Assembly (NCBI RefSeq): GCF_029893235.1
Contig: NZ_JARXWE010000009.1
Span: 1-64,000, forward strand
Direction: 5' to 3'
DNA: 64,000 bases
From: Dysgonomonas sp. PH5-45
GTDB taxonomy: Bacteria > Bacteroidota > Bacteroidia > Bacteroidales > Dysgonomonadaceae
Made by a program: the position numbers and the translations under genes. Under the pieces are notes generated by a model that did not search any database, was not told where the DNA came from, and saw only the letters and a list, made by a program, of their open reading frames with translations. This document shows, one piece after another, positions 3,961 through 34,577 of this stretch (position 1 is its first letter; each line of letters starts with the position of its first letter).

Positions 3961-3992
3961 GGGGCGGGATCACCCGTCCCAACGAGTGATCC
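3961..3992. terminator. Bidirectional hairpin between converging operons
   Basis: GGGGCGGG at 3961-3968 pairs with CCCGTCCC at 3973-3980. An alternative stem pairs GGATCAC at 3967-3973 with GTGATCC at 3986-3992. It lies exactly between the lipoprotein gene and the converging gene that ends at 3992. No T tract follows, so it is called from position and stem strength. Confidence 0.5.
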
Positions 3993-4582
3993 TATTTGAT
4001 CTTTTTCTCTCTTTCTTCAATACTGTTTTTTAGTTTTTTGAGCAAATCAGTATTTTTACTATCATTGAAAAGATCTTCAAGTTCAAGAAGTTCTTTTTCT
4101 GAAATACCATTTTGAAGTTTAATATACCTGTACTTCAAATCGCTATCTTGCAAAAGACATTTTTCCTTGTATTGAGATATGTTCGTATGAATGGAACATA
4201 ATAATAGTACAATTGTCGAAAGCAGAATTGTCAGAGTTTTGATTGATTTGAAACTAATTGCAAATGTATCCTTTACCAAAGAGAGTTTTCGAAGAGCTTC
4301 CTCTGTTTCCTTTTGAGAGCCGACAAGTTTTGTCGTTTGCTCCTTAATTCGTTTTTCCACTTCTCCTTGGCATTCCTTTACCTCATGTCTAATAAAATGG
4401 AACAGATCATCAACTTTATTACCGGTCTCTTTGCTCCTTTCGATAAGACGCATATATTCCGGATCCGGCTGATTCGCTTCATCCTCATTATGCATTGCAT
4501 CCACTTTAGAAGAGATCTCATTTAATGTTTGTTTGAATTCCTCAAACATTTCACTAATAATTGCTATATCATTTTTTGCCAT
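3992..4582 (-). CDS. Membrane-anchored coiled-coil protein of the mobilization operon
   Basis: This 196-residue protein has a charged N-terminal helical half, one hydrophobic segment around residues 115-135 (LTILLSTIVLLLCSI) and a second charged helix at the C-terminus. It sits 14 bp after the relaxase gene and is probably translated with it. Small membrane proteins at this position in Bacteroides mobilization operons have no assigned role. Anchoring the relaxosome is one possibility, but that is a guess. Confidence 0.6.
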   Translation of the reverse strand: MAKNDIAIISEMFEEFKQTLNEISSKVDAMHNEDEANQPDPEYMRLIERSKETGNKVDDLFHFIRHEVKECQGEVEKRIKEQTTKLVGSQKETEEALRKLSLVKDTFAISFKSIKTLTILLSTIVLLLCSIHTNISQYKEKCLLQDSDLKYRYIKLQNGISEKELLELEDLFNDSKNTDLLKKLKNSIEEREKKIK

Positions 4583-4596
4583 ACTGTTATGATTTT

Positions 4597-5499
4597 TTAA
4601 TAACTACGATTTCTTTTTCGTTTCCAATCTTCATTGTCAGAGCTTCCGGCAGAAGCTCCCATTGCTCCCAGAATACCCAAAGGAGCTTCTATAATAGTTT
4701 GCAGAGGAGAGGTCTTGCCTGTTGATCGCTCCACGAAGTTGGAGTCTCTTTCTGCTGAATATGAGATTTTTTCTTCTCCTGTAAAAACTTGATTGATTTT
4801 TGAGTAACTAAAACTCCGATCAACCTTAGATCCGCTAAAAGAAAAACCGTTCTTACTAAAAACAACTCCCTGTATCTCATTCGTTTTCCCTTTGTACTTA
4901 AAGGAAAGTTCAATATCTTTTCGGGTGAGTTCCGATTGGAGATCGGACCAGTTACTCGATTTTGGCATGGCTTGTTTAAGCGCATCATATATTTGATATT
5001 TTGTCCTATCAGGCTCTTTTAGCCGATGCGTTTTGACTCGTTCCTTTCCTTTGGCATAATAGAGGTCATTCTTTAGAGTAAGCTCCTTGCAGGTCTTCTC
5101 ACTTCTGTATCGGTCATTCTTGTCAGAGATCAGTTTGCCCTCATTATTGATCCGGTTTATACATAAATGGATATGAGGGTGTTCTTTGTCATAATGCCGT
5201 ATAATAACATATTGAGTATTTGTTATATTCATCTTCTTCATGTACTCTCTGGCAATCTCAGCCATTCGTTCATTGGATAACTTGTCTTTATCCTGCGATG
5301 AAAAATCAAGTGAGATATGATAAACCGGACATTTTATTTTAGGGTTCATTTCTTGTTGAGTCAAGAAGCTATCAATAATACTATCTTTATCTCTTGTCCG
5401 AACACCATTGCTATCTACAATCTCAGCACTCTTTTCTTTGTCTAGCATATAATCGACAACACGGCTAAAGCTGCTCCCTAATACTATTTTTGCTATCAT
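4597..5499 (-). CDS. mobB: Relaxase (MobB, MOBP-like)
   Basis: The 300-residue protein carries the three-His metal motif HPHIHLCIN around residue 125 and a YRSEKTCKEL segment after it, as in Bacteroides relaxases. The nicking tyrosine is probably Tyr17 (VVDYMLD). The enzyme would nick oriT and lead the strand into a recipient through a helper conjugation system. Its start overlaps the end of mobC by 4 bp. The C-terminal 60 residues are Ser- and Lys-rich and look disordered. Confidence 0.9.
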   Translation of the reverse strand: MIAKIVLGSSFSRVVDYMLDKEKSAEIVDSNGVRTRDKDSIIDSFLTQQEMNPKIKCPVYHISLDFSSQDKDKLSNERMAEIAREYMKKMNITNTQYVIIRHYDKEHPHIHLCINRINNEGKLISDKNDRYRSEKTCKELTLKNDLYYAKGKERVKTHRLKEPDRTKYQIYDALKQAMPKSSNWSDLQSELTRKDIELSFKYKGKTNEIQGVVFSKNGFSFSGSKVDRSFSYSKINQVFTGEEKISYSAERDSNFVERSTGKTSPLQTIIEAPLGILGAMGASAGSSDNEDWKRKRNRSY

Positions 5500-5867
5500 C
5501 CTCTCATTGTCTTAATAATGCTATCTATACTTTCTGCCAGATAGAGGTATTCTTGCCGGATCTCAATATACCCCGCTTGATTAGCTTTTTTGGCGACCTG
5601 ATTCAGATTATTCGCCATTCCACAAAGCTTTCGGATCAGCTCATTGATTTCTGGCGTCATGCGTTGAATGACATTGCTATCCAAAATACAAGCACGTACA
5701 TAATCGGTCTGGGAAAGAGCTGCTTCTTTTGCTTTCCCCTTTAGGGTATAATACTCCGTTGTCATTAGTTTTATATTAACTTGATATTTCCGTTTTTCGT
5801 GAGCCTTTTTTGCAGGCCGTCCGATATTTTTTTCTTTCATTTTTACTGTAATTATTTGTGAGACCAT
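5496..5867 (-). CDS. mobC: Relaxosome accessory protein MobC
   Basis: The 123-residue basic protein contains KYQVNIKLMTTEYYTLKGKAKEAALSQTDYVRACIL, split here as a beta strand followed by two helices, the ribbon-helix-helix layout of MobC. The later IRKLCGMANNLNQVAKKAN segment is the usual MobC signature. It should bind oriT and help the relaxase. A perfect palindrome lies just upstream. Confidence 0.85.
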   Translation of the reverse strand: MVSQIITVKMKEKNIGRPAKKAHEKRKYQVNIKLMTTEYYTLKGKAKEAALSQTDYVRACILDSNVIQRMTPEINELIRKLCGMANNLNQVAKKANQAGYIEIRQEYLYLAESIDSIIKTMRG

Positions 5868-5879
5868 CGGGATTGTAGA

Positions 5880-5897
5880 GTTTCGGGTACCCGAAAC
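5880..5897. promoter_or_regulatory. Perfect 18-bp palindrome upstream of mobC (oriT or operator candidate)
   Basis: GTTTCGGGTACCCGAAAC is fully self-complementary and lies 13 bp before the mobC start, in the 68-bp gap after the Toprim gene. This is a usual place for oriT or for a MobC binding site. Confidence 0.5.
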
Positions 5898-5935
5898 ATA
5901 AACTTGCTTATTGAAAGAATTAGATTAAACGTCAA

Positions 5936-6940
5936 TCAAATTACCTTTAGTTCAAAAGTCTCAATAAGCAAGTTGAGCATTGGATTTTTCTCTATCATTT
6001 GTTGACAGATGTTTTTTTGAGGACTGCTTTTTATAAGGAAATCTGCGATATCATAACCTTCTTTGATTTGTTCCTTAGAAGCATATCTCTCCAAATAATC
6101 GGAAACGATTACTTCAATACCAAGATCCGACATCTGCTCGCGTTTGATATCCCAATAATCCTTTGCGCCCAAATCCGGGAATAAAACAACTTTGCGGTTT
6201 TTCAGAACAAGCATATTGTCTTGGTTCAGGCAACCGTTTTTACCTCCGGTAGCAATCCATATATACTGTGGGATGTAAATTGAAGCGACCATTGCTGTTT
6301 TTTCACTTTCAACTATGGCTATAGGAGAGGTTTTATTCTCACGCAATAAATGTTCTCCGAAAAAGCATTGTTTCAGTTGATAGTTCTCCTGTTTTAGCAA
6401 CGAATGTACCCAAGTGATATGACTGTGAGGTTTCTTAACTCTTTTTCCAGTCTGTGGATCATATAGCATGATTTTCCCTGTACGAATTCTATCTTGTTGA
6501 TCGATTTGCCAGAATACGGTTGATCCATTCCAATGATTGGCTGTCCCAACTTGATACTTCTTGAATAGTAGTTCTGATACACTATAACCGAACTTAGATT
6601 GAAAGAATAGAAATAGATTATTTGTATCATAATGTTTTAAGCTTTTGTTTAGCAAAGCCTGATCTAAATAATCCGGTTCTACGGTCTCTCGATCATGTTT
6701 TTGAAAAATAGGGAAAGTCTGCTGTTCTTCTTTTTCTGTCGGGTTATCTATGAAGTATTGTTTGGGTGTATAATGATAACCGCATTTCTGCTCTCTATTA
6801 CATCTGCCAACATAATTAGGGAACTTGATAGACTCTTTCGAATCAACATAGCGGACGAAAATTCGCTTCTGACCACATGCCGGACAAGTATGTCTTGAAC
6901 TCGGAGTTTTGTATTTTTCTAAGTGAAATCGATAATTCAT
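5936..6940 (-). CDS. Zinc-ribbon/Toprim primase-like protein (DUF6371-like)
   Basis: The 334-residue protein starts with a zinc ribbon: CPACGQKR about residue 25 and CNREQKCGYHY about residue 48. A Toprim-like core follows, with IVESEKTAM near residue 215 and LFPDLGAKDYWD near 255. This matches the primase-like proteins of Bacteroides mobilizable elements. I chose ATG at 6940, which has AAAGGAGGG just before it, over a GTG at 6976 whose extra codons lie in a conserved repeat. Confidence 0.75.
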   Translation of the reverse strand: MNYRFHLEKYKTPSSRHTCPACGQKRIFVRYVDSKESIKFPNYVGRCNREQKCGYHYTPKQYFIDNPTEKEEQQTFPIFQKHDRETVEPDYLDQALLNKSLKHYDTNNLFLFFQSKFGYSVSELLFKKYQVGTANHWNGSTVFWQIDQQDRIRTGKIMLYDPQTGKRVKKPHSHITWVHSLLKQENYQLKQCFFGEHLLRENKTSPIAIVESEKTAMVASIYIPQYIWIATGGKNGCLNQDNMLVLKNRKVVLFPDLGAKDYWDIKREQMSDLGIEVIVSDYLERYASKEQIKEGYDIADFLIKSSPQKNICQQMIEKNPMLNLLIETFELKVI

Positions 6941-6952
6941 TTTTCCCTCCTT

Positions 6953-7165
6953 TGGCACACTGTCAACTTTGTACACACTGGTAAAACTGCTACTGGTTAT
7001 CAGTTAGTTAACCCCTGAAAAGTGTGCCTGAAAATCCGATTTTCGGATGCACACTTCAACGAAAAAAGCCGAAAGTGTGTACTCGGAATTTCAAAATTAC
7101 GCACAGTTTATTTGTTGATTATCAATGCGATAACTGTCGGGGTTGACAGAGTTGACAGTGTGCCA
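6953..7165. repeat. Repeat-rich intergenic unit bounded by 15-bp inverted repeats
   Basis: TGGCACACTGTCAAC at 6953-6967 is the exact reverse complement of GTTGACAGTGTGCCA at 7151-7165. The right arm is preceded by a further GTTGACAG at 7142-7149. Inside, AAGTGTGC at 7020-7027 pairs with GCACACTT at 7049-7056 around a second inner stem. Another AAAGTGTG lies at 7072-7079. The unit fills the gap between two genes. It could be an origin with iterons, an operator cluster or a small MITE-like insertion; no target duplication was seen. Confidence 0.6.
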
Positions 7166-8548
7166 CTAGTACAGTTTTCGATAGTAGCCGTATTTAAAAT
7201 TCTCTAGTAGATTGCCATTCCATTTTCCCACTATTTTCTTGAATGTGTTTTCGGGAATAGAAAGGTTGGCAGCAACTCTAATTCCATCTTTAGTGGCAAA
7301 TTCATACGGTAAGGCATTGTAGAGTTTTTGTTTCTCCATATCCATTTTCTCCAGAAGATCGGAGGAACTGATAATATACTGGACCTTTTTTGCCGTTCTC
7401 TTGAAGTATTCGATCACTTCAATAGCTCCTTCTACGCTTTTTAAGTCAATGTAATCCTTATCGGCTTCTCCACATAGCCAACGAGCCATTTGTAATATCA
7501 GACAGAAACGGATAGCATATATTTCCATTTTGGAGTATATACCCATCATAATCTCGTCTTTTTCTTGGTTGCACTGATCGGTGTTTGTTCGTTGCCACTC
7601 GTAGATTTTCTTCTTTGCATCCGGCTTGAAACTTAGTTCTCGTGGGATTGGATCGCCTGTTTCATCAGTCACAAAATCAATATCAATCAATTTTTGAACA
7701 AGACCGTTCCAGTATGGAATTACATGAGTTGACAACTCATCTTCGCTCCAATAGCGTTTTTCAAGATTGCTTGGAATGACAAAGAGGATTCGATCTAAGA
7801 AGCCGTTTTGACTACGCTCTCCTTTTGCCAGTTCCTTTAACACTCCATGCTGGATGGTACCAATTACATTGATAAAAGAGTGTTTTACTGAAACTGAGTT
7901 TTTGGCTCCACGTCTATCTAATATGATCGGTTTACAGGAAAATACGGAGAGCCAGAACTGTTCCTCTGAACCTTTGGAGTAACGATTGAAATTCTTAAAC
8001 CACGAAGCTAATTCATCAGAATATAAACATATACCTCGTTTGTTATTCTCGTGTAAAAAGGCAAGTGATTCCGGGGTAATGTCAGATACAACAAACTTAT
8101 TTAACGTGGGCTCTTCTGGCAAATCAAGTCCTCGTTCTTCACGTTCTTTTCGGGAATAAGAAAGGATTTCTTCGTATTCCTTATACTCTTTCTTGAATTT
8201 TAGCGCATTATTGGCATCAGAGTCTAGTAATGGGCGCAACGCAAAGTATAAAGGGTGTGATTTATTCGTTCCCGGGCGACCGAGAAAAGCCAGATAGAGG
8301 ATACATCGCTCACTCCATCCTTCTTTCAACTTGGCAACATGGGTATTTCCTGTCAAAGTTGAAATGACATAACAAAGAGCCATTGCAATATAATCCGGTG
8401 GGTAATTGAGTCGTTCGCTTGTAACATGGATAATTTCTCGTAACTGTTTGGGTAGTGCGTGTATAGGAAAGTCTGATGCGTATAGCTTCTCCCGGCATTG
8501 AAGCGCATCATCAATTATGCCTTCTGCTGTGATTTTGTTTGATTCCAT
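7166..8548 (-). CDS. DUF3987 (VirE-associated) ATPase-like protein
   Basis: This 460-residue protein has a P-loop-like GRPGTNKSHP near residue 90, a LYSDELASWF Walker-B-like segment near 175, and the LDRILFVIP segment near 250 that is usual in the DUF3987 family of Bacteroides mobile elements. It probably works with the downstream Toprim protein in element DNA replication. Its stop codon directly abuts the right arm of the inverted repeat. It is preceded by the HTH gene with a 1-bp gap. Confidence 0.8.
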   Translation of the reverse strand: MESNKITAEGIIDDALQCREKLYASDFPIHALPKQLREIIHVTSERLNYPPDYIAMALCYVISTLTGNTHVAKLKEGWSERCILYLAFLGRPGTNKSHPLYFALRPLLDSDANNALKFKKEYKEYEEILSYSRKEREERGLDLPEEPTLNKFVVSDITPESLAFLHENNKRGICLYSDELASWFKNFNRYSKGSEEQFWLSVFSCKPIILDRRGAKNSVSVKHSFINVIGTIQHGVLKELAKGERSQNGFLDRILFVIPSNLEKRYWSEDELSTHVIPYWNGLVQKLIDIDFVTDETGDPIPRELSFKPDAKKKIYEWQRTNTDQCNQEKDEIMMGIYSKMEIYAIRFCLILQMARWLCGEADKDYIDLKSVEGAIEVIEYFKRTAKKVQYIISSSDLLEKMDMEKQKLYNALPYEFATKDGIRVAANLSIPENTFKKIVGKWNGNLLENFKYGYYRKLY

Positions 8549-8549
8549 A

Positions 8550-8912
8550 TCAAGAGATTTTCCTTTTTCCTTTATTCTTTAATTCAGTTTCTAACCTCTC
8601 GATATGTTCCTTAACGGTCTCCTGCTTATTGGATAGCAACCATTCTTCAAGTTCAGATTTTCTGAACAAAACTCGACCTCCTCGAGTTCCTTGCCGGAAG
8701 AATGGTATTGTATGGTCGCTCGTTTTGCGGTAAAGTGTACTTTTCTTATAACCTGTAAAGCGTGCTGCCATGTCAATGGACATGATTTCTGGGAATTGAA
8801 CAGTATTATTCTGACTTTCTTTCCCGAATGTTTCCTGTAAAGATATAAACTCTTCTACAGTAAGATAAATCAAAGGTTTTTCTTTGATTTCTTCAAATGA
8901 TCTTTGTTTCAT
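8550..8912 (-). CDS. Helix-turn-helix (excisionase-like, MerR/HTH_17) protein
   Basis: The 120-residue protein carries MSIDMAARFTGYKKSTLYRKTSDHTIP (split by function into helix, turn, recognition helix) near residues 45-70, then a FRQGTRGGRVLFRKSELEEWL wing. This is the DNA-binding layout of Bacteroides excisionase and HTH_17 proteins. It leads the operon with the DUF3987 gene. Confidence 0.8.
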   Translation of the reverse strand: MKQRSFEEIKEKPLIYLTVEEFISLQETFGKESQNNTVQFPEIMSIDMAARFTGYKKSTLYRKTSDHTIPFFRQGTRGGRVLFRKSELEEWLLSNKQETVKEHIERLETELKNKGKRKIS

Positions 8913-8991
8913 TGCATTCTATTTGATTTGTTCGATGCAAAGATGTAATAAGACAGTTGAAGTTCAATCGGTTAGAAGTGGTAGGGTAATT

Positions 8992-9906
8992 TCAATTTTC
9001 AGGAGGATATTTTACCACTCTAATTTTCTTGATTGTATCACTAAGACCATTTGTAATTTTCATGATCTCTTTATAGAGCATAGGGGCGGCGTCTTTAGGT
9101 GGCTGTCGATATAAATTTCGGATTGTTAAATATGGCTTCGAACTTTGAAGAAAATCTTGACTGTCATATAGGTTGAAAAGTATTAGATAATCTGCAATGA
9201 AACGACACATAGTGTTTGATAGCTTAATCTCATCGATCGAATCAAGGATGTTCCTGTTTGCATAATATTCATCAATACGTAAAAGTAAAGCCAATGCATG
9301 TATCCCCATGTGAATAAATTTCTTAACAGGCTTCTTTCTTTTGTTTTCACCATCTTTTACTCTCCAATATCTCAACTGATTGATTTTCTTATCAAGTAGA
9401 TCTCTCTGTTCCAATTTGAAACATGATTCATATGCCTCTGACAACTCATCCACAAGCATTTCTCGGTCATTCACGATAAATTCTTCTTCGTTTTTCTTGA
9501 TTATCATAAACGTATTTAGCTTCAACTCTTCTATTTCATTCCAAACTTCTTCGAGTAACGCCTTGATACATTTTGGATTATCCAATTCGATACTTTGAGC
9601 TATGCTACCCTTATTGGTAACTCTAATTTTTGCGTTTTGATTGTCTATAAGGAACTTTGCTTTTTCTAACAGGTCAATTGCATACTGAAAGGATGGGAAT
9701 AGAGGTGTTTCAAAATCAATTTTGTCTAAATACAGGCAATGACCAAATTTCCACAGATGAGATTCATATTCTTTGATCTGAGGTAATTCTCTCGAATAAT
9801 TGTCTATCAGGTTAGCAAAGGCATCATGGTCGATGGTAGTAGCACTGTCATCGAAATACTCAAGGTTAATGCCACAAAGGGCTACTTTGAAGTCTGTTTT
9901 ATTCAT
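8992..9906 (-). CDS. Hypothetical helical protein at the usual integrase position
   Basis: The product has 304 residues, is mostly helical and charged, and has no signal peptide or membrane segment. No integrase R-H-R-Y pattern, nuclease motif or named family was found. It may be an RteC-like or other island regulator, but that is not supported by motifs. It is the last gene before the tRNA-Pro remnant. Confidence 0.6.
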   Translation of the reverse strand: MNKTDFKVALCGINLEYFDDSATTIDHDAFANLIDNYSRELPQIKEYESHLWKFGHCLYLDKIDFETPLFPSFQYAIDLLEKAKFLIDNQNAKIRVTNKGSIAQSIELDNPKCIKALLEEVWNEIEELKLNTFMIIKKNEEEFIVNDREMLVDELSEAYESCFKLEQRDLLDKKINQLRYWRVKDGENKRKKPVKKFIHMGIHALALLLRIDEYYANRNILDSIDEIKLSNTMCRFIADYLILFNLYDSQDFLQSSKPYLTIRNLYRQPPKDAAPMLYKEIMKITNGLSDTIKKIRVVKYPPEN

Positions 9907-12000: not shown

Positions 12001-12239
12001 ACAAATTCAAGACAACAGAAGATATCCTCCTTGAAATCTTACTTGGCATAACACTCTTCATTACAATAGGAATTTTTATGTATGCTATAAAATCTTGCAG
12101 AGATAAAGAAAGTTGTAAAGACTCCCAAGAACTAACAGAAATGATGGAGTACCATTCTAATAGAGGGTATTTGGTGTCTGAACATGATGGGTTTTTAATA
12201 CTTAAAAAAATAAACAGGGGGAGTAGCTCAGTCAGGTAG
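11997..12239 (+). CDS. Small single-span membrane protein
   Basis: This 80-residue product has one hydrophobic helix at about residues 11-31 (ILLEILLGITLFITIGIFMYA) split from a charged tail. Its last seven codons run into the tRNA-like sequence starting at 12217. Function unknown. It may be an early host-takeover or exclusion protein. Confidence 0.55.
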   Translation: MNKFKTTEDILLEILLGITLFITIGIFMYAIKSCRDKESCKDSQELTEMMEYHSNRGYLVSEHDGFLILKKINRGSSSVR

Positions 12240-12285
12240 AGCGAGAAGGAACGCTAGGTCGGTGGTTCGAATCCATCCTCCTCCA
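12217..12285 (+). tRNA. Abnormal short tRNA-like RNA
   Basis: Acceptor arms GGGGGAG (12217-12223) and CTCCTCC (12278-12284) pair with one G-T. A D arm GCTC/GAGC (12226-12229, 12239-12242) and a T arm GGTGG-TTCGAAT-CCATC (12261-12277) are canonical. Only 13 bases separate the D stem from a normal AGGTC variable loop, where a standard tRNA needs 18. A usable 5-bp anticodon stem with 7-base loop cannot be formed. It is therefore a degenerate phage tRNA or a tRNA mimic. Length 69 nt. Confidence 0.55.
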
Positions 12286-12618: not shown

Positions 12619-12800
12619 GGAGAGTTGGCGGAATTGGTAGACGCGCATAGAAAGGCATAAAAACCCATTGCCGAATAGTTAGGGGAAGGACAATAAGCCC
12701 TGTCGTTGAATCGAGAATTTCTGTGTTGACCCGAACAGAATGCAAAAGGTTGAAACATTCGGGTCCCCCGTACTTACAGGTTCGAACCCTGTACTCTCTA
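12619..12800 (+). ncRNA. 182-nt tRNA-Leu-like RNA with enlarged anticodon and variable arms
   Basis: Acceptor GGAGAGT (12619-12625) pairs with ACTCTCT (12793-12799); discriminator A and then CA follow. The D arm region (TTGGCGGAATTGGTAGACGC) is that of tRNA-Leu. The T arm ACAGG-TTCGAAC-CCTGT (12776-12792) is perfect. CATAGAAA (12646-12653) pairs with TTTCTGTG (12718-12725) as an extended anticodon stem enclosing 64 bases. GACCCGAA (12728-12735) pairs with TTCGGGTC (12758-12765) as an oversized variable arm. A normal tRNA-Leu has about 85 nt. It may be an intron-bearing tRNA, a decoy or a new tRNA-like RNA. Confidence 0.6.
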
Positions 12801-12837: not shown

Positions 12838-13311
12838 ATGGAATTAAAAGTAGAAAAATCAAACGCATTAAAAGCGTGGCGAGAAACAGACAATCGAGGT
12901 AAGGCCTTATTAGAAAAACTTTATCCGAATGTAAATTTCAACAACCAAAGTATCATGGATCGTGTCAAAACTTACGAGGATGCTTGTGCTGAACTCGGGG
13001 AAACTCAAATAGATGAAGTTGCTTGCAGAGAATTAGGGTTAAATAAAAATGATATAGCCTACCTCAAACTTGCCCAGATCGTGAGAGCCTTGAATGAAGG
13101 ATGGGTGGCCAAAGTGTACGATGAAGAAAAACGCTATTACCCTTGGTTCAGACACAATGGTTCTTCGGCTGTTTTCCGTTTCGACGGTTCGTACTACGAT
13201 TGCTCGGGTGCCCGCGCTGGTAGCGGCTCCCCCCTTTGCTTTAAATCGAAAGAACTATCCGATTATGCCGGAGTGCAATTTTTGGATTTCTGGAAGGAAT
13301 TTATTGTGTAA
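12838..13311 (+). CDS. DGR target protein 1 (variable C-terminal lectin-like region)
   Basis: The 157-residue protein belongs to a family common in Bacteroidales phages: an N-terminal helical part (SNALKAWRETDNRGKALLEKLYP), a RALNEGW motif near residue 85, YPWF near 100, then the variable segment. The variable repeat codes for about residues 108-134 and ends in GSGSPLCF, followed by a constant tail ELSDYAGVQFLDFWKEF. The arrangement fits a small C-type-lectin-like fold, which I infer from the DGR. No signal peptide or membrane span, so it probably acts in the cytoplasm or virion. Confidence 0.85.
   Translation: MELKVEKSNALKAWRETDNRGKALLEKLYPNVNFNNQSIMDRVKTYEDACAELGETQIDEVACRELGLNKNDIAYLKLAQIVRALNEGWVAKVYDEEKRYYPWFRHNGSSAVFRFDGSYYDCSGARAGSGSPLCFKSKELSDYAGVQFLDFWKEFIV
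13160..13239 (+). repeat. DGR variable repeat VR1
   Basis: Aligned without gaps to the template at 13859-13938 it differs at 15 of 80 positions up to the shared TGC (plus one boundary base at the left edge region). All 15 fall on template adenines (A to G, T or C). Five of the 20 template adenines are unchanged. This is the signature of adenine-specific mutagenic retrohoming. Confidence 0.93.
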
Positions 13312-13330
13312 TTAATCTAACATAGATATT

Positions 13331-13813
13331 ATGAATACGACAGAATTAAAAGTTAGTAAAGTTAATGCTCTTAAAGCATGGAGAGATACCGATAAGAATG
13401 GTAAGCTACTTTTGGAAAATTTGTATGGAGCAAAAGTATTTCAAAATCAGGACGTGAGAGATCGGATCAAAACATTTGAGGATGCTTTAGCAGAAACAGG
13501 CAGACCAAATGTGCCGGACTTTTCAAATGTACCGGAGAATATGAAAGATTATTTTGTAGCTCAATACAAAATGTCAGTTATAGCAGAAGCTCTTAACGAA
13601 GGATGGACCCCTGATTGGGATAATGCCAATGAAAAAAAATGGTGGCCTTGGTTTATTATGGAAAAGGCTGTTTTCCGTTTCTTCAATTCGCGCTACTGTT
13701 GCTCGTATGCCGACGCTGGTAGCGGCTCCCGCCTTTGCTTCCGAACAGAAGAATTATCAACCTATTGTGCTGAACAATTCCTTCCTATCTGGAGAGATAT
13801 TCAACTGAGATAA
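13331..13813 (+). CDS. DGR target protein 2 (paralog of target 1)
   Basis: The 160-residue protein shares the whole layout of target 1: VNALKAWRDTDKNGKLLLENLYG at the start, VIAEALNEGW near residue 87, WWPWF near 102, variable segment at about 112-136, then LCFRTEELSTYCAEQFLPIWRDI. The gene begins 20 bp after target 1 and ends 46 bp before the template repeat, so it is the target nearest the template. Paralogs in tandem suggest target duplication inside the cassette. Confidence 0.85.
   Translation: MNTTELKVSKVNALKAWRDTDKNGKLLLENLYGAKVFQNQDVRDRIKTFEDALAETGRPNVPDFSNVPENMKDYFVAQYKMSVIAEALNEGWTPDWDNANEKKWWPWFIMEKAVFRFFNSRYCCSYADAGSGSRLCFRTEELSTYCAEQFLPIWRDIQLR
13666..13738 (+). repeat. DGR variable repeat VR2
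   Basis: It aligns to template 13866-13938 at a constant offset of exactly 200 bases. There are 14 differences, all at template adenines. Similarity stops sharply left of GGCTG at 13666. Confidence 0.93.
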
Positions 13814-13858
13814 TTCATAAACAGGTTGTCGTTCTTCTGGTGCTGCTTTCCGCCTACT

Positions 13859-13938
13859 GTTCTTCGGCTGATTTCCGTTTCAACAATTCGAACTACAATT
13901 ACTCGAATGCCAACACTGGTAGCAGCTCCCACCTATGC
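13859..13938 (+). repeat. DGR template repeat (TR)
   Basis: This copy lies outside any gene, between target 2 and the reverse transcriptase, and holds 20 adenines from 13860 to 13938. Read in the target frame, its variable codons are mostly AAC or AAT (FRFNNSNYNYSNANTGSSSH), the usual DGR template design that maximises amino-acid change. The block from CTGGT to TGC (13916-13938) is the best conserved part and is the candidate homing-initiation end. Confidence 0.93.
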
Positions 13939-14048
13939 AAATTTTATATATTATAAAAAAGAATGAGACCTTACCTCTAGGTAAAAGATAAAATATAATT
14001 GAACAGGGTTAGTAGGAATTCCGAAAACCCTAATTAGATAAGCAAAGG
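13939..14048 (+). ncRNA. DGR template-to-RT spacer with hairpins
   Basis: This 110-nt non-coding spacer has TTACCT/AGGTAA at 13971-13984 and AGGGTT at 14005-14010 pairing with AACCCT at 14026-14031. In the Bordetella phage DGR the RNA downstream of the template is needed to prime cDNA synthesis, and this stretch is in the same place. Confidence 0.5.
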
Positions 14049-15053
14049 ATGAAAAGATTAAACAATTTATATGATAGTATTTGTTCTATAAGTAATTTGT
14101 ATGAAGCGTACTCCAAAGCACGAAAGGGAAAGTCTAAATCCTATGGAGTTCAAAAGTTTGAAGAAAACTTAGATGCCAATATCAACCAAATATATTGTGA
14201 ACTTATCTCAGGAACCTATAAGACTTCGGAATATAAAGTTTTCAGCATATTTGAGCCAAAAGAAAGAATTGTTTACAGACTTCCGTTTCGTGATAGAGTG
14301 GTACATCATGCTATTATGAATGTTCTCGAAAGTATTTGGGTGCCTATCTTTATAACTCATACCTATTCCTGTATAAAAGGTAGAGGTATACATAAAGCAT
14401 TAAAACACATAAGACGCGATCTTAAAGATTACGAAAATACCCATTACTGTTTAAAATTAGACATCCGAAAATTCTACCCATCCATAAACCACAATATTCT
14501 TAAAGACATTGTCCGCAAAAAGATAAAAGATTTAAGGTTACTCAGCCTATTGGATGGGATAATAGATTCCGCTCCGGGGCTTCCCATAGGTAACTATCTT
14601 TCTCAATATTTAGCGAATCTCTATTTGACTTATTTTGACCATTGGCTGAAAGAAAATCTTGGGGTTAAATACTACTACCGATATGCCGATGATATGGTAA
14701 TATTGTCTTCAGACAAAGATTATCTCCATCAAACTAGATTAAGAATAAGAGATTTTCTACAACAAGAGTTAGAGTTAGATCTAAAAAGTAATTACCAAAT
14801 ATTTCCTGTGGATACTAATGGTATAGACTTTATAGGTTATGTATTCTTTCATTCACACATTCTATTACGGAAAAGAATAAAGAAAAACCTCTGTAAGAAA
14901 GTAGCAAAACTTGAAAAACAGAATACCTCTTTAAGAATATACAAACGGTCTATTTGCTCGCATCTTGGGTGGGCTAAACACTGTAATTCAAGAAATCTTA
15001 TGAAATCAATAATCAAAAACGAGGAAATGCTAATTTCCCTACATTTAAAATAA
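14049..15053 (+). CDS. DGR reverse transcriptase
   Basis: The 334-residue protein has the fingers-palm RT core: RIVYRLPFRDRVVHHAIM near residue 75, LKLDIRKFYPSI (motif A, catalytic Asp) near 137, GLPIGNYLSQYLANLYL near 178 and YRYADDMVI (catalytic YADD) near 220. The GxxxSQ in motif 4, in place of the QGxxxSP of group II introns, is diagnostic for DGR enzymes. There is no maturase or endonuclease domain. It copies template RNA with errors at adenines. A terminator follows. Confidence 0.93.
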   Translation: MKRLNNLYDSICSISNLYEAYSKARKGKSKSYGVQKFEENLDANINQIYCELISGTYKTSEYKVFSIFEPKERIVYRLPFRDRVVHHAIMNVLESIWVPIFITHTYSCIKGRGIHKALKHIRRDLKDYENTHYCLKLDIRKFYPSINHNILKDIVRKKIKDLRLLSLLDGIIDSAPGLPIGNYLSQYLANLYLTYFDHWLKENLGVKYYYRYADDMVILSSDKDYLHQTRLRIRDFLQQELELDLKSNYQIFPVDTNGIDFIGYVFFHSHILLRKRIKKNLCKKVAKLEKQNTSLRIYKRSICSHLGWAKHCNSRNLMKSIIKNEEMLISLHLK

Positions 15054-20091: not shown

Positions 20092-20961
20092 ATGGATAAA
20101 GATATTATTGCATGGTGGTCTGGTGGTGCTAGCTCTGCTGTCGCTTGTAAACTAGCGATTGATCTTTTCGGAGCTAATAGAGTCAGAGTAATCTTTCAAG
20201 ATACAAGGAACGAGGATGACGATACATACCGCTTTTTGAAAGATTGTGAAAAATGGTATGGCATTAAAATCGAAATTATATCGAGCAAAGAATTTAACTC
20301 AATTGAGGAAGTCTGGTATAAATATCTTTCACTCAGTGTTGCTGGAGGCGCAATTTGCTCAACCAAGTTAAAGAGGGAAGTTAGAGAACAATGGGAAAAA
20401 GAAAATACTTGGGCACATCAAGTGTTCGGGTACGATATGAAAGAAGCAATAAAAAGAGCCGTTCCCATGACTTTAAATAATCCTAAACTTAACGCTATTT
20501 ATCCATTGTTGTTGTATGGATACTTCAAAAAAGATTGTATTAAAATATTAGATAACGCTGGAATTAAAGTACCGGAGCCCTATATAAAAGGCTATGAAAA
20601 TAATAACTGTGATAAAACAGGTTGTACTCGTGGTGGAATTGGTTATTGGCAAAAAAGAAAAAGAGAAGAATACAATAAGTTCTATAAGATGGCAATGAGA
20701 GAACATGAACTTACGAATCTCAAAGGCGAACCGGTTACCATTTGTAAAGACCAGAGCAATGAAGCTAAGAAGAAAGGTGGATATGTTCCTGTGTTCTTAT
20801 TACCACACCCGGACTATCCGGAAGTAAAAGATATATCAATGTTCAAAGGTCGAGAGCCTGAACCATTAGTAGAATGCAATGGGTTTTGTGGACTTGACGA
20901 CATGGATGTGTATTTAGAGAAAAAAAAGAGATTAAACAATAATAATGAATTCAACTTTTGA
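20092..20961 (+). CDS. PP-loop ATPase, PAPS reductase-like
   Basis: ATG at 20092 follows the polymerase stop by 2 bp. The 289-residue protein has the PP-loop WWSGGASSAV at residues 8-17, CSTKLKRE near 85 and a Cys-rich stretch NNCDKTGCTRGG near 183. Phage members of this superfamily are often tied to DNA or tRNA modification or to sulphur handling. The actual substrate cannot be read from the sequence. Confidence 0.8.
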   Translation: MDKDIIAWWSGGASSAVACKLAIDLFGANRVRVIFQDTRNEDDDTYRFLKDCEKWYGIKIEIISSKEFNSIEEVWYKYLSLSVAGGAICSTKLKREVREQWEKENTWAHQVFGYDMKEAIKRAVPMTLNNPKLNAIYPLLLYGYFKKDCIKILDNAGIKVPEPYIKGYENNNCDKTGCTRGGIGYWQKRKREEYNKFYKMAMREHELTNLKGEPVTICKDQSNEAKKKGGYVPVFLLPHPDYPEVKDISMFKGREPEPLVECNGFCGLDDMDVYLEKKKRLNNNNEFNF

Positions 20962-21442
20962 AAGAAACGGAGAGAAAAGCACTGTCGAATGGTACACTCC
21001 TCCCTACATAATAGAAGCTTTAGGTGGGTGGTGGTCCTTTGATCTTGATCCTGCATCCCCAGAGAATATAATCACAGAAACAGCTTGTAAATACTATACT
21101 AAAAGAGACAATGGTCTTACCCAATCATGGCATGGTCGTATATTCCTTAATCCTCCTTACGAGAATCCTTTGATTGGGCAATTTATGCAAAAATTATCTG
21201 AGCATGGGAATGGAATTGCTTTAGTATATAATCGTACAGATTCCAAATGGTGCCAAGAGTATGTCTTAAAAAGAGCTGATGCAATATTATTTCTGAGTAA
21301 ACGAATAAAATTCATAAAACCGGACGGTTCTATGGGAAACAGCCCTGGTGCTGGATCTATTTTAATAGCGTATGGTCAAGAAAACGTAAAATACTTAGAG
21401 AATTGTGGGCTTGAAGGCTGTATTTTATACCCTAAAAACTAA
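20945..21442 (+). CDS. Phage DNA N6-adenine methyltransferase (Dam-like)
   Basis: The 165-residue protein starts with the phage Dam signature EWYTPPYIIEAL and FDLDPASPE, then has the catalytic FLNPPYENP (NPPY) near residue 62. It should methylate adenine in phage DNA to evade restriction. It overlaps the PP-loop gene by 17 bp. Confidence 0.87.
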   Translation: MNSTFERNGEKSTVEWYTPPYIIEALGGWWSFDLDPASPENIITETACKYYTKRDNGLTQSWHGRIFLNPPYENPLIGQFMQKLSEHGNGIALVYNRTDSKWCQEYVLKRADAILFLSKRIKFIKPDGSMGNSPGAGSILIAYGQENVKYLENCGLEGCILYPKN

Positions 21443-21470
21443 ACATTAATCAAGCAACATTAAAAGAATT

Positions 21471-21755
21471 ATGAAAAATCAATCACCTAAAATAGATCAA
21501 TTTAAAGGCATAACATCTGAAATGTCGGATTTGTACGAACGCAAGAATGCCGATTATGGAGACAGCTTTGGAAAATCTTTCAAAGAGTATGGTGAAGCGA
21601 TGCCTTGTATTCGCTTAGAAGACAAGTTAAATCGTCTGAAATCCCTAACTATCCGAAAACAATCGGCACAGGTAAATACCGAAAGTGTTGAAGATACTCT
21701 TATGGATATCGCCAATTATGCTGTAATGTCTATCATCGAGTTACGAAACCGATGA
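21471..21755 (+). CDS. DUF1599 (nucleotide modification-associated) protein
   Basis: The 94-residue protein has the family pattern KNADYGDSF near residue 25, RLEDKLNRLKSL near 45 and EDTLMDIANYAVM near 72. The fold resembles all-alpha NTP pyrophosphatases. It sits among DNA methyltransferases and overlaps the next gene by 4 bp, so a role in nucleotide or base modification is likely. Confidence 0.82.
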   Translation: MKNQSPKIDQFKGITSEMSDLYERKNADYGDSFGKSFKEYGEAMPCIRLEDKLNRLKSLTIRKQSAQVNTESVEDTLMDIANYAVMSIIELRNR

Positions 21756-22492
21756 TATCTAATTTCAAAGCTGAGACATTCGGATGCGTAACACTTATAG
21801 AAGGCGATTGTTATGAAATTATGGATACTTTTTATCCTTTTCAATTTGATCTGGCAATACCGGATGTAGATTATGGGTTGGATGTTACCAAAATGCCGTT
21901 TACAAAGAGAACGGTGATGCCTGTAAAGCAGAAAAATGGCAAATCACTCAATGTAAGAAAATCAGAATACAAGCAGAAAGACTGGGACCTAAAAACTCCT
22001 GGTCTTTCTTATTTTGAGAAACTATTCGATGTGTCAGTACATCAGATTATATGGGGCATTGATTATCTGAATATTCCCAACATTGGAAATGGAAGAATTA
22101 AATGGGATAAATGCGTTCCCGAGAAATTAAGTTTTAAAGGTTTTGAAAGAGCCTATTGTAGCTTACTGGATTCTGAGATTGATATAAAACTACTATGGAG
22201 CGGATTCAGGCAAGCAAAAAGCTTAGAAGAACCAACAATACAACAAGGGAATAAGAAGTTGAATGAAAAACGGATTCACCCTACACAAAAACCAGTGCTT
22301 CTATATAAACGCTTATTGCTAGACTACGCCAAACCCGGATGGAAAATATTAGACACTCACGGAGGAAGCATGAGTCTGGCAATTGCCTGTTTCGACTTAG
22401 GATATGAGGTCGTAATTATAGAAAAAGACTCCGATTATTTTACCGATGGTCGGGATAGATTAATAAAACATATAACGGATAAGAAAATATGA
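21752..22492 (+). CDS. Phage N-type DNA methyltransferase with altered catalytic motif
   Basis: The 246-residue protein has the beta-class order: FDLAIPDVDYG near residue 30 where DPPYG is expected, RIHPTQKPVLLYKRLL near 175, and the SAM-binding ILDTHGGSMSLAIAC near 198. The P-P of the catalytic loop is replaced by V-D, so activity is uncertain. It is translationally coupled on both sides through ATGA overlaps. Confidence 0.8.
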   Translation: MISNFKAETFGCVTLIEGDCYEIMDTFYPFQFDLAIPDVDYGLDVTKMPFTKRTVMPVKQKNGKSLNVRKSEYKQKDWDLKTPGLSYFEKLFDVSVHQIIWGIDYLNIPNIGNGRIKWDKCVPEKLSFKGFERAYCSLLDSEIDIKLLWSGFRQAKSLEEPTIQQGNKKLNEKRIHPTQKPVLLYKRLLLDYAKPGWKILDTHGGSMSLAIACFDLGYEVVIIEKDSDYFTDGRDRLIKHITDKKI

Positions 22493-23595
22493 ATCATGCA
22501 TCTCTTTTTAGCGGTATAGGTGGTTTTGATCTTGCAGCTGAATGGATGGGATGGCATAATGTGTTCCACTCCGAAGTAGATCCTTTCTGCAATAAAATAT
22601 TAAAATATCATTTTCCAAACTCTATATCTTATGGTAACATTAAAGAAACAGACTTCACCCCACACAAGGGGGGGGTGGACATACTTACCGGTGGATTCCC
22701 CTGTCAACCATTCTCATCAGCAGGATTACGCAATGGAACAGACGATTCCCGATACCTTTGGCCTGAAATGTTCAGAGCAATTAGAGAAATTCGCCCCCGA
22801 TGGGTCATTGCGGAAAATGTTCGTGGATTACTTAGTTGGAATGGAGGGTTGGTTCTCGACACGGTGTGCACTGATTTGGAAAATGAGGATTACGAAGTCT
22901 GGCCGTTCTTACTGCCAGCTTGCGGTGTCAACGCTCCGCACCAAAGATACCGTATCTGGATTATTGCCTACTGTTCGAACAACGATGACTGGGGGAATAC
23001 ATCCGAACAGGCTAAAAGACAAAAACAACAATTCAGAAACCGCTTTGAGCAAGGTATTGCTTCCAACACCTACAGCGCAGGATTTCAAACGCAGAGGGCC
23101 GAACAGCAAGCAACAAGGACTCCCGGAGATATTATACAATATGAAATTACTCCCAACACCGCTTGCGAACAATCATCGAAACGGGAGAACATCGATTACC
23201 CCGAGTATACTACAAAAGTTGAACCAAGGTTGGACTGTAGAGCTTCACGATCTTGCAACGTTGAGCCTACTTCCGACCCCGACCAACTCAATGGCAACAT
23301 ATCCAGATTTCATCCAAGCGAAGTATCACAGTTCCAAACGCCCGGAATATGGAAAAATAATTGGAAAAACTTTCCAACTCAACCCCCTGTTTGTAGCAGA
23401 GATGATGGGCTTTCCGGTAGGATGGACACTAACGCCCTTCTTGATGGACGAAAACCCCGAAACCCTTGGCAACCGTGGAATAAATGGAGGCAAGAATCTG
23501 TAAAGTCGTTTGGTAATGCCGTTGTTCCTCAAATACCCTATATGATTTTTAAGACCATAGCTGATTTTGAAAGAACTTTAAAATTGTTTGAATAA
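22489..23595 (+). CDS. Phage C5 cytosine methyltransferase
   Basis: The 368-residue protein has motif I SLFSGIGGFDLAAEWMG, motif IV GGFPCQPFSSAG near residue 67, motif VI AENVRG near 107, motif VIII APHQRYRIWI near 148 and motif X SFGNAVVPQI near 345. Residues about 160-330 hold an atypical, low-complexity recognition region that is also open in a second frame. The start overlaps the preceding gene by 4 bp. Confidence 0.9.
   Translation: MNHASLFSGIGGFDLAAEWMGWHNVFHSEVDPFCNKILKYHFPNSISYGNIKETDFTPHKGGVDILTGGFPCQPFSSAGLRNGTDDSRYLWPEMFRAIREIRPRWVIAENVRGLLSWNGGLVLDTVCTDLENEDYEVWPFLLPACGVNAPHQRYRIWIIAYCSNNDDWGNTSEQAKRQKQQFRNRFEQGIASNTYSAGFQTQRAEQQATRTPGDIIQYEITPNTACEQSSKRENIDYPEYTTKVEPRLDCRASRSCNVEPTSDPDQLNGNISRFHPSEVSQFQTPGIWKNNWKNFPTQPPVCSRDDGLSGRMDTNALLDGRKPRNPWQPWNKWRQESVKSFGNAVVPQIPYMIFKTIADFERTLKLFE
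22631..23503 (+). CDS. Overlapping +1-frame ORF inside the C5 methyltransferase gene
   Basis: A 290-codon frame from ATG 22631 lies wholly inside the methyltransferase gene. Its product looks protein-like: FAPDGSLRKMF, WFSTRCALIWKM, three LLPTP-type repeats and LNPLFVAEMMGFPVGW near the end. I recall similar LLPTPTA and MMGFP segments next to phage C5 methyltransferases, so the overlap may be real. It could also be a by-product of constraint on the other frame. Confidence 0.5.
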   Translation: MVTLKKQTSPHTRGGWTYLPVDSPVNHSHQQDYAMEQTIPDTFGLKCSEQLEKFAPDGSLRKMFVDYLVGMEGWFSTRCALIWKMRITKSGRSYCQLAVSTLRTKDTVSGLLPTVRTTMTGGIHPNRLKDKNNNSETALSKVLLPTPTAQDFKRRGPNSKQQGLPEILYNMKLLPTPLANNHRNGRTSITPSILQKLNQGWTVELHDLATLSLLPTPTNSMATYPDFIQAKYHSSKRPEYGKIIGKTFQLNPLFVAEMMGFPVGWTLTPFLMDENPETLGNRGINGGKNL

Positions 23596-23774
23596 TGAAA
23601 CATCAAAATTCGGGATATCTGGTATTAACCAAATCTGGTTTATCGGGACGAACCTACCATAAAGACGAATTGATCAACGGTAAACAACCTATTTACGTAA
23701 AGTATGAGAATAATAAAGATCTGAAATTACTCTGTGACCCTGAATCTCTCACCGTAAAAGGATTTATAGATTAA
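23595..23774 (+). CDS. Small phage protein (59 residues)
   Basis: ATG 23595 shares one base with the methyltransferase TAA (TAATG). The 59-residue basic peptide contains SGLSGRTYHKDELINGKQPIY, split here as a short loop and strand pair, and has no known family. The tight coupling and clean fit before the primase-helicase gene support it. Confidence 0.6.
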   Translation: MKHQNSGYLVLTKSGLSGRTYHKDELINGKQPIYVKYENNKDLKLLCDPESLTVKGFID

Positions 23775-23779
23775 TAAAT

Positions 23780-26179
23780 ATGAGTGATAAACTACAAATA
23801 AAATATGATGGTGAATTAGATATCGCCATAGGAAGAAGCCGTAAAGAAGTCAATTGGAAAAATAAGACAGTTGATTGGTCTGCTTTCTTGAACCGGATTA
23901 AAGATACCCATCGAACACATGAAACGTTTTCTCAATATCTGGGGATGAATAAAACCATGCAATCCGATATAAAAGATATTGGAGGTTTTGTTGGCGGATT
24001 CATTGCCGGAGGTAGACGTAAGATAGAAAACGTCTCTCACCGACAACTCGTTACGTTGGATATTGATTTCGGAACAATGGATATTTGGGCTGATTTCAAA
24101 TTAATGGGATTCGCCGGAGCTATCTATTCAACTCATAAACATTCTCCGGATAAACCGCGTCTGCGTCTGATTGTACCTTTAGATAGAGAGGTTTCGCGTG
24201 AAGAATACGAACCAATCGCTCGTTATATTGCTAATGAGTACGATATCAACGCTTTCGATGATACAACCTTCGATGTTTGCCGGTTAATGTATTGGCCGAG
24301 TTCGCCAAAAGATGGAGATTACATCTTCGAATATTCGGATGGAGAATGGATGTCGGCAGACGATATTCTAAATTCATATACCGATTGGACGGATGCTAGT
24401 AGCTGGCCTATCAGCGAAAGAGTAGATAAAGCCGTGCATTCCGAAATCAAAAAACAGGAAATACCAACCGAGAAAAAAGGGATCGTGGGAGCTTTCTGTC
24501 GCACTTACTCTATTAGTGAAGCCATTGATAAATTCTTAGCTGAAGAATACGAAGCTTGCGATGTAGAGAACAGATTTACCTATAAGCATGGAAGTACGGC
24601 TGCGGGGTTAGTGGTTTACGATGATCTCTTTGCCTTTTCCCATCATGGGACCGATCCTGCGAGTGGTAAGCTGTGTAATGCCTTCGATTTGGTTCGTGTA
24701 CATAAATTTGGAATAAAAGACACTGATAGTAAAGAAAATACTCCGGCTAATAAACTTCCATCTTATATCGCTATGCAGGAATTTGCAACAAAAGATGGAG
24801 AAGTTCGGAAAACCATTGCCGAAGAAAGACTGGAATCCGCAAAAGAAGATTTTGAAGATTTTACGGAAGAAGATGTTGTTGAAGTAGAAGACGATACTTG
24901 GCTAGAAAAACTGGATGTGGACTCCAAAGGTGTTACTAAAGCATCAATAACCAACTGCCGGTTGATATTCGAAAACCACAAAGCATTTAAAGGAAAATTT
25001 GCATATAACGAATTTAGGAATACCAATGATGTTATGGGCAATCTTCCTTGGCGTAGAGTCGATAAGAGTATGAATATCTGGAACAACTTCGATAATGGGC
25101 ACTTAAGCGAATGGTTCGAACGTAATTTCGATATCTCCCACGAATCAAAGCTCAAAATAGCTAAACTCAACACATTCGATATGCACAGATACCATCCGGT
25201 ACGTGATTATCTGAATAGTCTGAAATGGGATGGAGTCAAAAGAGTAGAAACCGTATTTATTGATAATCTGGGTGCGGCAGATACACCATATACCAGAGCG
25301 GTCACGCTTAAAAGTCTGGTTGCTGCGGTAGCTAGAATTTTCGAACCGGGTGTAAAATTCGATTATGTGTCAGTCCTTGTCGGAGAGCAGGGTGTCGGGA
25401 AAAGCGTCACACTTCAGAAACTAGGTAAATCCGACAAAGGGTGGTTCTCCGACAACTTTGACCTGAAAGGAACAAACCAAGATGTTGAACAGGTTCTCGG
25501 TGTATGGATCAAAGAGATTCAGGAGCTTGCCGGATTCAGAGGTAAAGATGCGGAAAAGGTAAAATCCTTCATCAGCTCCCGACAGGACGAATGTCGGTTA
25601 GCCTTTAAAGAAGAAAAGGGCTATTTCCCTCGTCAGTGTGTATTCTTCGGAACATCTAATGATTATAACTTCCTGAATGATCCGAGTGGCAACAGACGTT
25701 TCTGGCCTATAAGGACGTATGTTCAGGAGCCAACAAAAGATTTTAGACGATTGGAAGACGAAGTAGACCAGATTTGGGCAGAAGCCGTACAAATCTATAA
25801 AAATGGAGAATCCTTATTCCTCGACAAAAATACGGAAGCTATGGCTCGTAGAATGCAGGACGATTACCGAAGTATTGATGAATGGGAAGAACTTATAAGA
25901 GAATACCTCGACATAGAGTGGCCCGAAAACTGGAAGGAGATGGATCTCGGCTCTCGTAAGCTATTCCTGAACGGAGATGAACTTGCACCGAAAGGGGAAG
26001 TAAAAAGAGACAAGTTCTCCGTTCTTGATATTTGGTGTGAGCGTTTCAATGGCGACATAAAAATAGCTTCGTCTGATGCAAAACGTATACGAAATGCGAT
26101 GCGTAAAATTGAAGGTTGGGAGGAAAAAGTAATTAAGGTCGAAGGCAAATCTGTCAGGGGCTTTTACCGAATAAAATAA
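23780..26179 (+). CDS. Primase-helicase (AEP-like primase plus VirE-type helicase)
   Basis: The 799-residue protein has an N-terminal primase-polymerase-like part (VTLDIDFG near residue 93, YSTHKHSPDKPRLRL near 116, FDVCRLMYWPS near 162) and a C-terminal VirE/D5-like ATPase with Walker A GEQGVGKS near 535, FFGTSNDYNFL near 620 and GNRRFWPI near 638. It would prime and unwind phage DNA beside the family A polymerase. Confidence 0.85.
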   Translation: MSDKLQIKYDGELDIAIGRSRKEVNWKNKTVDWSAFLNRIKDTHRTHETFSQYLGMNKTMQSDIKDIGGFVGGFIAGGRRKIENVSHRQLVTLDIDFGTMDIWADFKLMGFAGAIYSTHKHSPDKPRLRLIVPLDREVSREEYEPIARYIANEYDINAFDDTTFDVCRLMYWPSSPKDGDYIFEYSDGEWMSADDILNSYTDWTDASSWPISERVDKAVHSEIKKQEIPTEKKGIVGAFCRTYSISEAIDKFLAEEYEACDVENRFTYKHGSTAAGLVVYDDLFAFSHHGTDPASGKLCNAFDLVRVHKFGIKDTDSKENTPANKLPSYIAMQEFATKDGEVRKTIAEERLESAKEDFEDFTEEDVVEVEDDTWLEKLDVDSKGVTKASITNCRLIFENHKAFKGKFAYNEFRNTNDVMGNLPWRRVDKSMNIWNNFDNGHLSEWFERNFDISHESKLKIAKLNTFDMHRYHPVRDYLNSLKWDGVKRVETVFIDNLGAADTPYTRAVTLKSLVAAVARIFEPGVKFDYVSVLVGEQGVGKSVTLQKLGKSDKGWFSDNFDLKGTNQDVEQVLGVWIKEIQELAGFRGKDAEKVKSFISSRQDECRLAFKEEKGYFPRQCVFFGTSNDYNFLNDPSGNRRFWPIRTYVQEPTKDFRRLEDEVDQIWAEAVQIYKNGESLFLDKNTEAMARRMQDDYRSIDEWEELIREYLDIEWPENWKEMDLGSRKLFLNGDELAPKGEVKRDKFSVLDIWCERFNGDIKIASSDAKRIRNAMRKIEGWEEKVIKVEGKSVRGFYRIK

Positions 26180-26523
26180 GGTACACATCAGCTACATTTT
26201 TAAAGAAATTGTAACCTTTTTAATTACAGAGTTACTATAAATTATATAAATGTAACCTGTTTTGTAACTCTCCAAAGTGTTTATTACAAACAATTTGGAG
26301 TATAAAAGTTACAAAGTTACATATTTATATTAATAGTAATATTTATTAGGTATTATATATTGGTATATCGCTGCCTAATTGCATACACCCTACGCGCGTA
26401 CGCGCGAGTAACCCTCAAAATAACAGAAGTGAATGCGCATCGTCCGGCTGTCGAAAGGTAGCTTTTGGTTGCTGTTATATCATGCTGAAATAATAAATAG
26501 GTCTGCGACCTTAATCAACTTTT
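26180..26523. other. Candidate phage replication origin
   Basis: This 344-bp gap has no gene. Six GTAAC/GTTAC pentamers cluster in 110 bp (26211, 26231, 26252, 26264, 26308, 26316) in very AT-rich DNA. They are followed by a perfect 14-bp palindrome CGCGCGTACGCGCG at 26393-26406, a sharp GC island. Iterons, AT-rich DNA and position after the primase-helicase suggest an origin. Confidence 0.5.
26499..26511 (+). repeat. Short covarying hairpin, copy 1
   Basis: AGGTC-TGC-GACCT. It lies 12 bp before the VRR-NUC start codon and is one of six related hairpins in the prophage. Confidence 0.6.
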
Positions 26524-28556: not shown

Positions 28557-28615
28557 TTTCATTTAGACTCGGTCTTCTCACGATCAACATTACTTAATAT
28601 AAAACTCAAATAAAA

Positions 28616-28628
28616 GGGTCTGTGCCCC
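28616..28628 (+). repeat. Short covarying hairpin, copy 2 (degenerate, runs into C11)
   Basis: GGGTC-TGT-GCCCC. The right arm passes into a homopolymer of 11 C (28625-28635) followed by 8 A. The next start codon is 36 bp on. Confidence 0.5.
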
Positions 28629-28663
28629 CCCCCCCAAAAAAAACTTCAAAAACATACGATAAG

Positions 28664-28807: not shown

Positions 28808-28823
28808 TAATTCAAGAAAAAAA

Positions 28824-33986: not shown

Positions 33987-34577
33987 ATGGACAGATTAAA
34001 CAAACAATTTGAGATACACACTATATCACGTCAAACTCTTATTGACTATGGGTATGACGAAGATATAGTCATGCAACTAAGTGATAGTGATATGCAAAGT
34101 ATTGCTTCCGATCTGAATAGCTCCTATACTGAGTGGAACAACCTGTTCGGTTCTGATATGAGCATAATCCCCGAAAAATATATAAACCAAATAACTAAAG
34201 AAAATATGAAAAAGATTGATTTAAGCACATTCGAAAATTGCTGTAAATACTTAGAAATTGCGCCGAATTTACCAGATGTATCAATGTTGCCGGCTACACA
34301 CGCAAAAGCATTAGTAAGCAACTATAGATTATGGGTTATCGCCGAAGCATGGAACAAAGAAGATAATTTTATCCCAGACTACGATAACGACAGCCAAAGA
34401 AAATATTATGCATGGTTTTGGAAATACAAAGAAGGTTTCCGTTTCAACGATTCGACGTACTATTACTCGAATGCCTGCACTGGTGGCGGCTCCCACCTTT
34501 GCTTTAAAACCCCCGAACGGGCAAAACAATTTGCGGAGATGTTTATTGACTTACATAACGATGTATTGCTTTTCTAA
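33987..34577 (+). CDS. DGR target protein 3 (remote target)
   Basis: This 196-residue protein has an extra N-terminal part of about 70 residues, then the family layout of targets 1 and 2: VIAEAWNKEDNFIPDYDN near residue 120, KYYAWF near 138, the variable segment at about 150-172 and LCFKTPERAKQFAEMFIDL at the end. It lies 20 kb from the reverse transcriptase in another operon, yet its variable repeat matches the same template. No signal peptide. Confidence 0.82.
   Translation: MDRLNKQFEIHTISRQTLIDYGYDEDIVMQLSDSDMQSIASDLNSSYTEWNNLFGSDMSIIPEKYINQITKENMKKIDLSTFENCCKYLEIAPNLPDVSMLPATHAKALVSNYRLWVIAEAWNKEDNFIPDYDNDSQRKYYAWFWKYKEGFRFNDSTYYYSNACTGGGSHLCFKTPERAKQFAEMFIDLHNDVLLF
34434..34502 (+). repeat. 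DGR variable repeat VR3, remote
   Basis: It aligns without gaps to template 13870-13938 (offset 20,564). Of ten differences nine are at template adenines and one is C to G at template position 13893. It is less diverged than VR1 or VR2, so it may have been rewritten more recently or less often. Confidence 0.9.

Follow-up and report, generated by a model that had tools for sequence, protein, structure and literature searches.

The window analysed here is a stretch of 64,000 nucleotides from Dysgonomonas sp. PH5-45. It raises the question of whether a reverse transcriptase (RT) gene and the near-repeats that precede it form a diversity-generating retroelement (DGR), and what the adenines of its template repeat (TR) are read as. 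According to an earlier note, every mismatch between the template and two variable repeats, 15 in VR1 and 14 in VR2, falls at a template adenine. Our recount agrees with this (29 of 29), and the aligned blocks are otherwise unchanged. VR1 was aligned with TR 13859–13938 (20 adenines in 80 nt, P = 2.3e-12) and VR2 with TR 13866–13938 (20 adenines in the block, P = 1.0e-10). When the alignment was stretched by 3 nt (AAA, 13939–13941), mismatches at TR adenines reached 18 of 18 for VR1 and 17 of 17 for VR2. The DGR reading is supported by the presence of the RT, the TR, the adenine-specific VRs and a TR–RT spacer RNA (Table 1), in an order conserved among relatives. The locus is almost certainly a prophage DGR.

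Table 1. Features of the DGR and its targets (positions in the window).
Feature	Position	Strand	Remarks
Target gene 1	12838..13311	+	157 aa; phrog_11581; VR near C-terminus
VR1	13160..13239	+	15/15 mismatches at TR adenines
Target gene 2	13331..13813	+	160 aa; phrog_11581; 49% identical to target 1
VR2	13666..13738	+	14/14 mismatches at TR adenines
TR	13859..13941	+	non-coding; 23 adenines; single CAG centred on 13924
TR–RT spacer RNA	13967..14049	+	Rfam RF03020 'RT-17 RNA'; 43.4 bits against gathering 40.4
DGR reverse transcriptase	14049..15053	+	334 aa; GxxxSQ, YADD; RVT_1, PHROG 1423, PDB 8ub7
Target gene 3	33987..34577	+	196 aa; remote; phrog_11581 5.7e-12
VR3	34434..34502	+	10 mismatches, 9 at TR adenines

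The RT matched Pfam RVT_1 (1.5e-17) and PHROG 1423 (9e-129), and its best match among solved structures was PDB 8ub7 (E = 2.9e-55), presumably the RT complex of the Bordetella DGR. The GxxxSQ motif typical of DGRs, also claimed before, is present as GNYLSQ. The gap of 110 nt between TR and RT contains the Rfam RT-17 RNA, and RF03020 was found just upstream of the RT in 7 of 18 relatives tested. RT-17 is a known RNA family and not a new one; a literature search for RT-17 together with DGRs found no paper. As the spacer at the same place in Bordetella phage BPP-1 recruits and primes its RT (PMC12875486), the RT-17 spacer is presumed by analogy to be an RT-recruiting and priming structure.

Classical DGRs carry an Avd-like accessory gene, and some DGRs on record have no accessory protein. 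In the ORFs near the RT that were tested, neither Pfam nor NCBIfam recognised the Avd family.

The count of two tandem targets holds for targets 1 and 2, which do lie in tandem, but it was incomplete. By masking the TR adenines and scanning the window, we found a further repeat, VR3, 20.5 kb downstream inside a 196-aa ORF. Nine of its ten mismatches fall at TR adenines (P = 2.5e-5). The sole other change, C to G at TR 13893, stands beside an A to C change. A pattern scan of the whole genome gave exactly four copies (TR, VR1, VR2, and VR3), and its reversed-sequence control gave zero. Owing to the non-adenine change and to fewer changes than in VR1 and VR2, VR3 may be a target that is old or seldom used. 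The genes adjoining target 3 at 35253–36523 are recombinase-like (invertase/serine recombinase matches).

All three targets matched phrog_11581, and target 3 was 29% identical to target 1. In each of them the C-terminus lies about 24 residues past the VR end. The AlphaFold2 model of target 2 (alignment of 105 relatives) had a pLDDT of 88 and was predicted helical; its VR segment was irregular and of low confidence (pLDDT about 57–61). In a large survey of the targets of DGRs (PMC8144416), C-type lectin folds went with every annotated VR region, and VR regions lacking annotation were considered possible new variants of this fold. For the present family, Foldseek, VIA-align, and profile searches of the PDB detected no C-type lectin, with the model weakest in the VR itself. 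A C-type lectin fold is unsupported by the target 2 model and the PDB searches, though a search that finds nothing does not disprove it. Profile hits of the family in the PDB (nitrile hydratase and others, E 0.02–0.6) were put down to chance. Matches in the viral library were uncharacterised phage proteins, crAss-like ones among them. The targets probably serve as recognition proteins encoded by the phage, with hypervariable binding as our best guess for their function.

The DGR lies inside a prophage with capsid, tape-measure, terminase, and portal genes, and a tyrosine-type integrase at contig positions 68312–69565 is followed by housekeeping-type genes (the integrase and these genes were assigned by eye from the sequence). 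Targets 1 and 2 are placed in the early/replication region, outside the tail block, with a repressor on one side and a recombination/replication block (exonuclease, ssDNA-binding protein, DNA polymerase) on the other. In single-target relatives, 4–7 kb lie between the DGR and a homologue of the 988-aa tail-region protein found in the window, and the targets are about 440 aa long. Because location and target size both differ from these relatives, the short-target clade seems to diversify another class of protein; its members lie in diverse contexts, most of which lack annotation.

About 350 related DGR loci were compared, and adenine-specific TR/VR pairs were found in about 125 of the first 154. 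The closest clade (RT about 60–70% identical) comes from Dysgonomonas, Paludibacter, Tannerella, Prevotellaceae, and environmental phages. Its order is short target, short target, TR of 75–90 nt, spacer, and RT, and some members have extra remote VRs (L019/L097, L113, L142). In 149 distinct TR/VR pairs, 2050 of 2074 substitutions were at TR adenines, a share that is biased by a detection score which itself favours adenine mismatches. The spectrum of the new bases (G:T:C = 56:30:14, with 67% of TR adenines changed) is unaffected by this score.

Variation opposite template adenines within a population, which the earlier note had expected, was observed in a sister element and in relatives. The same genome carries a second DGR on contig C22 (L009:3625-6368), with an RT 67% identical to that of the window and three targets. 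Two of these arose by a recent tandem duplication: from 4071 to at least 4580 they match each other save at nine sites, and all nine are at TR adenines. We also compared recent pairs of DGRs from different samples, with RTs at least 95% identical in DNA and TRs mostly identical. In the 25 valid pairs (three misaligned rows excluded), about 312 of about 327 VR differences were at shared TR adenines. By sequence comparison, this result shows that the VRs of near-identical DGRs with unchanged TR were rewritten independently and repeatedly. No copy of the same phage with other VRs occurred among 60 relatives, the best RT being 66% identical.

Two other accounts of the repeats were weighed against a DGR. 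If targets 1 and 2 were ordinary paralogues accompanied by a degenerate third copy, all diverged by normal mutation, their paralogy (49%) would be explained. The substitution pattern refutes this account, as 29 of 29 differences fall at template adenines (chance about 1e-12 for VR1 and 1e-10 for VR2), and its probability is negligible. A decayed or silent DGR, in which the VR differences would be relics of a system no longer working in this genome, draws on the use of a single genome and on the one non-adenine change in VR3. The RT frame, the catalytic motif, the TR, and the spacer are nevertheless all intact, and the duplicate in the C22 sister element differs solely at TR adenines within an otherwise identical block. 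We consider such a silent element improbable.

Not all template adenines gave mixed outcomes. TR 13924 (CAG) is read as G, and TR 13935 (CTA) as T, in VR1, VR2, and VR3 alike. Since these outcomes are shared and fixed, both sites are weaker evidence for ongoing mutagenesis than the remaining adenines. At the TR base matching 13935, CTA became CTT (synonymous Leu) in 124 of 124 VRs of the short-target clade; this base likely sits just past the 3′ limit of transfer. An Arg site in CAC context gave 169 G and 1 C, with an anchor that did not require Arg. In the window this site is C in VR1 and retains A in VR3, which indicates that it can be rewritten, and we left it out of the claim on CAG.

CAG sites were called interior when at least two changed non-CAG adenines lay on each side. 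Where the RT was at least about 40% identical to that of the window, interior CAG was read as G in 406 of 418 cases. The counts were A 3, G 115, T 1 for RTs at least 60% identical; A 2, G 156 for RTs 50–60% identical; A 3, G 120, T 2 for Clostridia-type elements; and A 1, G 15 for Syntrophaceae-type elements. Non-CAG contexts in the same VRs were mixed, with about 24–29% G in the first two of these groups. At four-fold degenerate positions, CAG gave G in 101 of 104 cases (80 loci, 50 RT clusters at 90% identity), and GAA gave A 6, G 13, T 11, C 5. The P value for CAG at these positions is 1e-39 when a G share of 0.37 is expected, but sites in related loci depend partly on one another, which makes the true value larger. 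In the recent pairs, CAG sites were G in 129 of 132 VR copies while neighbouring sites varied. The Clostridia-type group also showed nearly all G at CAC (92/95) and TAG (29/30).

A mechanism can be proposed for the DGR as a whole. The RT would copy an RNA that includes the TR and, downstream of it, the RT-17 spacer, which may take part in priming, and template adenines would be miscopied on the way. By mutagenic retrohoming, the mutated cDNA would then take the place of the VRs in three or more small phage proteins, and one RT would also serve the remote VR3. Miscopying may depend on context, such that A in 5′-CAG-3′ is nearly always copied as though it were G; the TR could thereby hold A where the VR stays constant. 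Slippage that re-uses the G of CAG would insert C, giving exactly A to G. We lean, with a little more belief than doubt, to an adenine code of at least two meanings in phage-type DGRs, mostly 'randomise' and at CAG 'write G', in which the RT nearly always inserts C and the TR can differ at chosen constant VR positions with the protein undisturbed.

The constant G might instead arise outside the RT, from failed transfer, repair of the G–T mismatch, or DNA-level selection on the VR. The constant CAG sites all have G in the VR, so an old G that was kept would look like an A copied as G, and T–G repair at CpG would fit both CAG and CAC. RTs less than 40% identical did not convert CAG (A 7, T 1), a small sample of eight sites that a scan for relatives of the distant RT L168 did not enlarge, as none was found. 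On the other hand, randomised adenines flank the interior CAG sites, including the GCA-GGG site in the middle of the TR of a 116-nt clade, and the synonymous sites rule out amino-acid selection. TAG follows the rule in the Clostridia-type elements yet is no CpG site. The pattern holds in Bacteroidota, Clostridia-type, and Syntrophaceae-type elements and splits by RT clade. As it crosses host phyla and follows the RT, repair of the cDNA or retention of an old G becomes less likely, and we rate an origin outside the RT as possible but rather unlikely. A VR hairpin (GCGGG...CCCGC), broken in the TR by A, was also considered as an IMH/IMH* mark; it occurs in one subclade only, with few free positions. 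It was dropped as the main explanation because the CAG context covers the same sites and more, and a second subclade lacks the hairpin.

Among known systems, the DGR of BPP-1 is close to the present locus, sharing with it a homologous RT (8ub7), the TR–spacer–RT order, and adenine-specific mutagenesis. In a 2026 study of BPP-1, the base 3′ of the adenine was shown experimentally to steer miscopying, and slippage with re-use of the preceding template base by the RT was proposed (PMC12875486). The average error given there is about 31%, and the text names no deterministic context; the near-certainty at CAG therefore goes beyond it. The CAG pattern is apparently unreported before. BPP-1 needs Avd (PMC12875486), whereas none was recognised here. 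Its single target is a tail-fibre protein with a C-type lectin fold, and a hairpin follows the VR (PMC3240598); the present locus has three short targets, none recognised as C-type lectins.

Bacteroidota prophage DGRs that have short tandem targets, in Dysgonomonas sp. ZJ279 (L097), Dysgonomonas sp. 521 (L098), and Paludibacter sp. 221 (L102), belong to the same RT clade (67–70%) and share the target–target–TR–RT order and the target family. Their host phage genes are largely unlike those of the window, and remote targets vary in number and position. Two-target phage DGRs with tentaclins are similar in using one RT for more than one target gene; tentaclins have an N-terminal C-type lectin and Ig domains and exceed 300 aa (PMC10743442), in contrast to the 157–196 aa of the present targets.

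The DGR itself is one more of a known phage kind. It is useful since the duplicated targets of the sister element in the same genome record rewriting events, and since the proteins that it diversifies are short, apparently not lectins, and encoded away from the tail genes. What makes the locus interesting is the CAG rule. If true, this rule would be a testable and nearly deterministic trait of an enzyme otherwise noted for randomness; it would help to tell fixed from variable sites in TRs and offer a means of writing constant positions into synthetic TRs.

Several minor features were observed around the DGR. Just upstream of target 1 are two tRNA-like sequences (12217–12285 and 12619–12800), neither of which was called by ARAGORN at default settings. 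One matched Rfam tRNA at 48.6 bits, although its anticodon arm is odd; in the other, 5′ and 3′ halves resembling tRNA-Leu (by eye) enclose a long extra middle. A possible mobilisable element (relaxase, DUF6371, DUF3987) lies left of the prophage at 3992–9906, and the prophage replication region holds several DNA methyltransferase genes at 20945–29450. Directly upstream of the TR, 13824–13858 is an adenine-free, imperfect partial copy of the TR start (TTCTTCTGGTGCTGCTTTCCGC).
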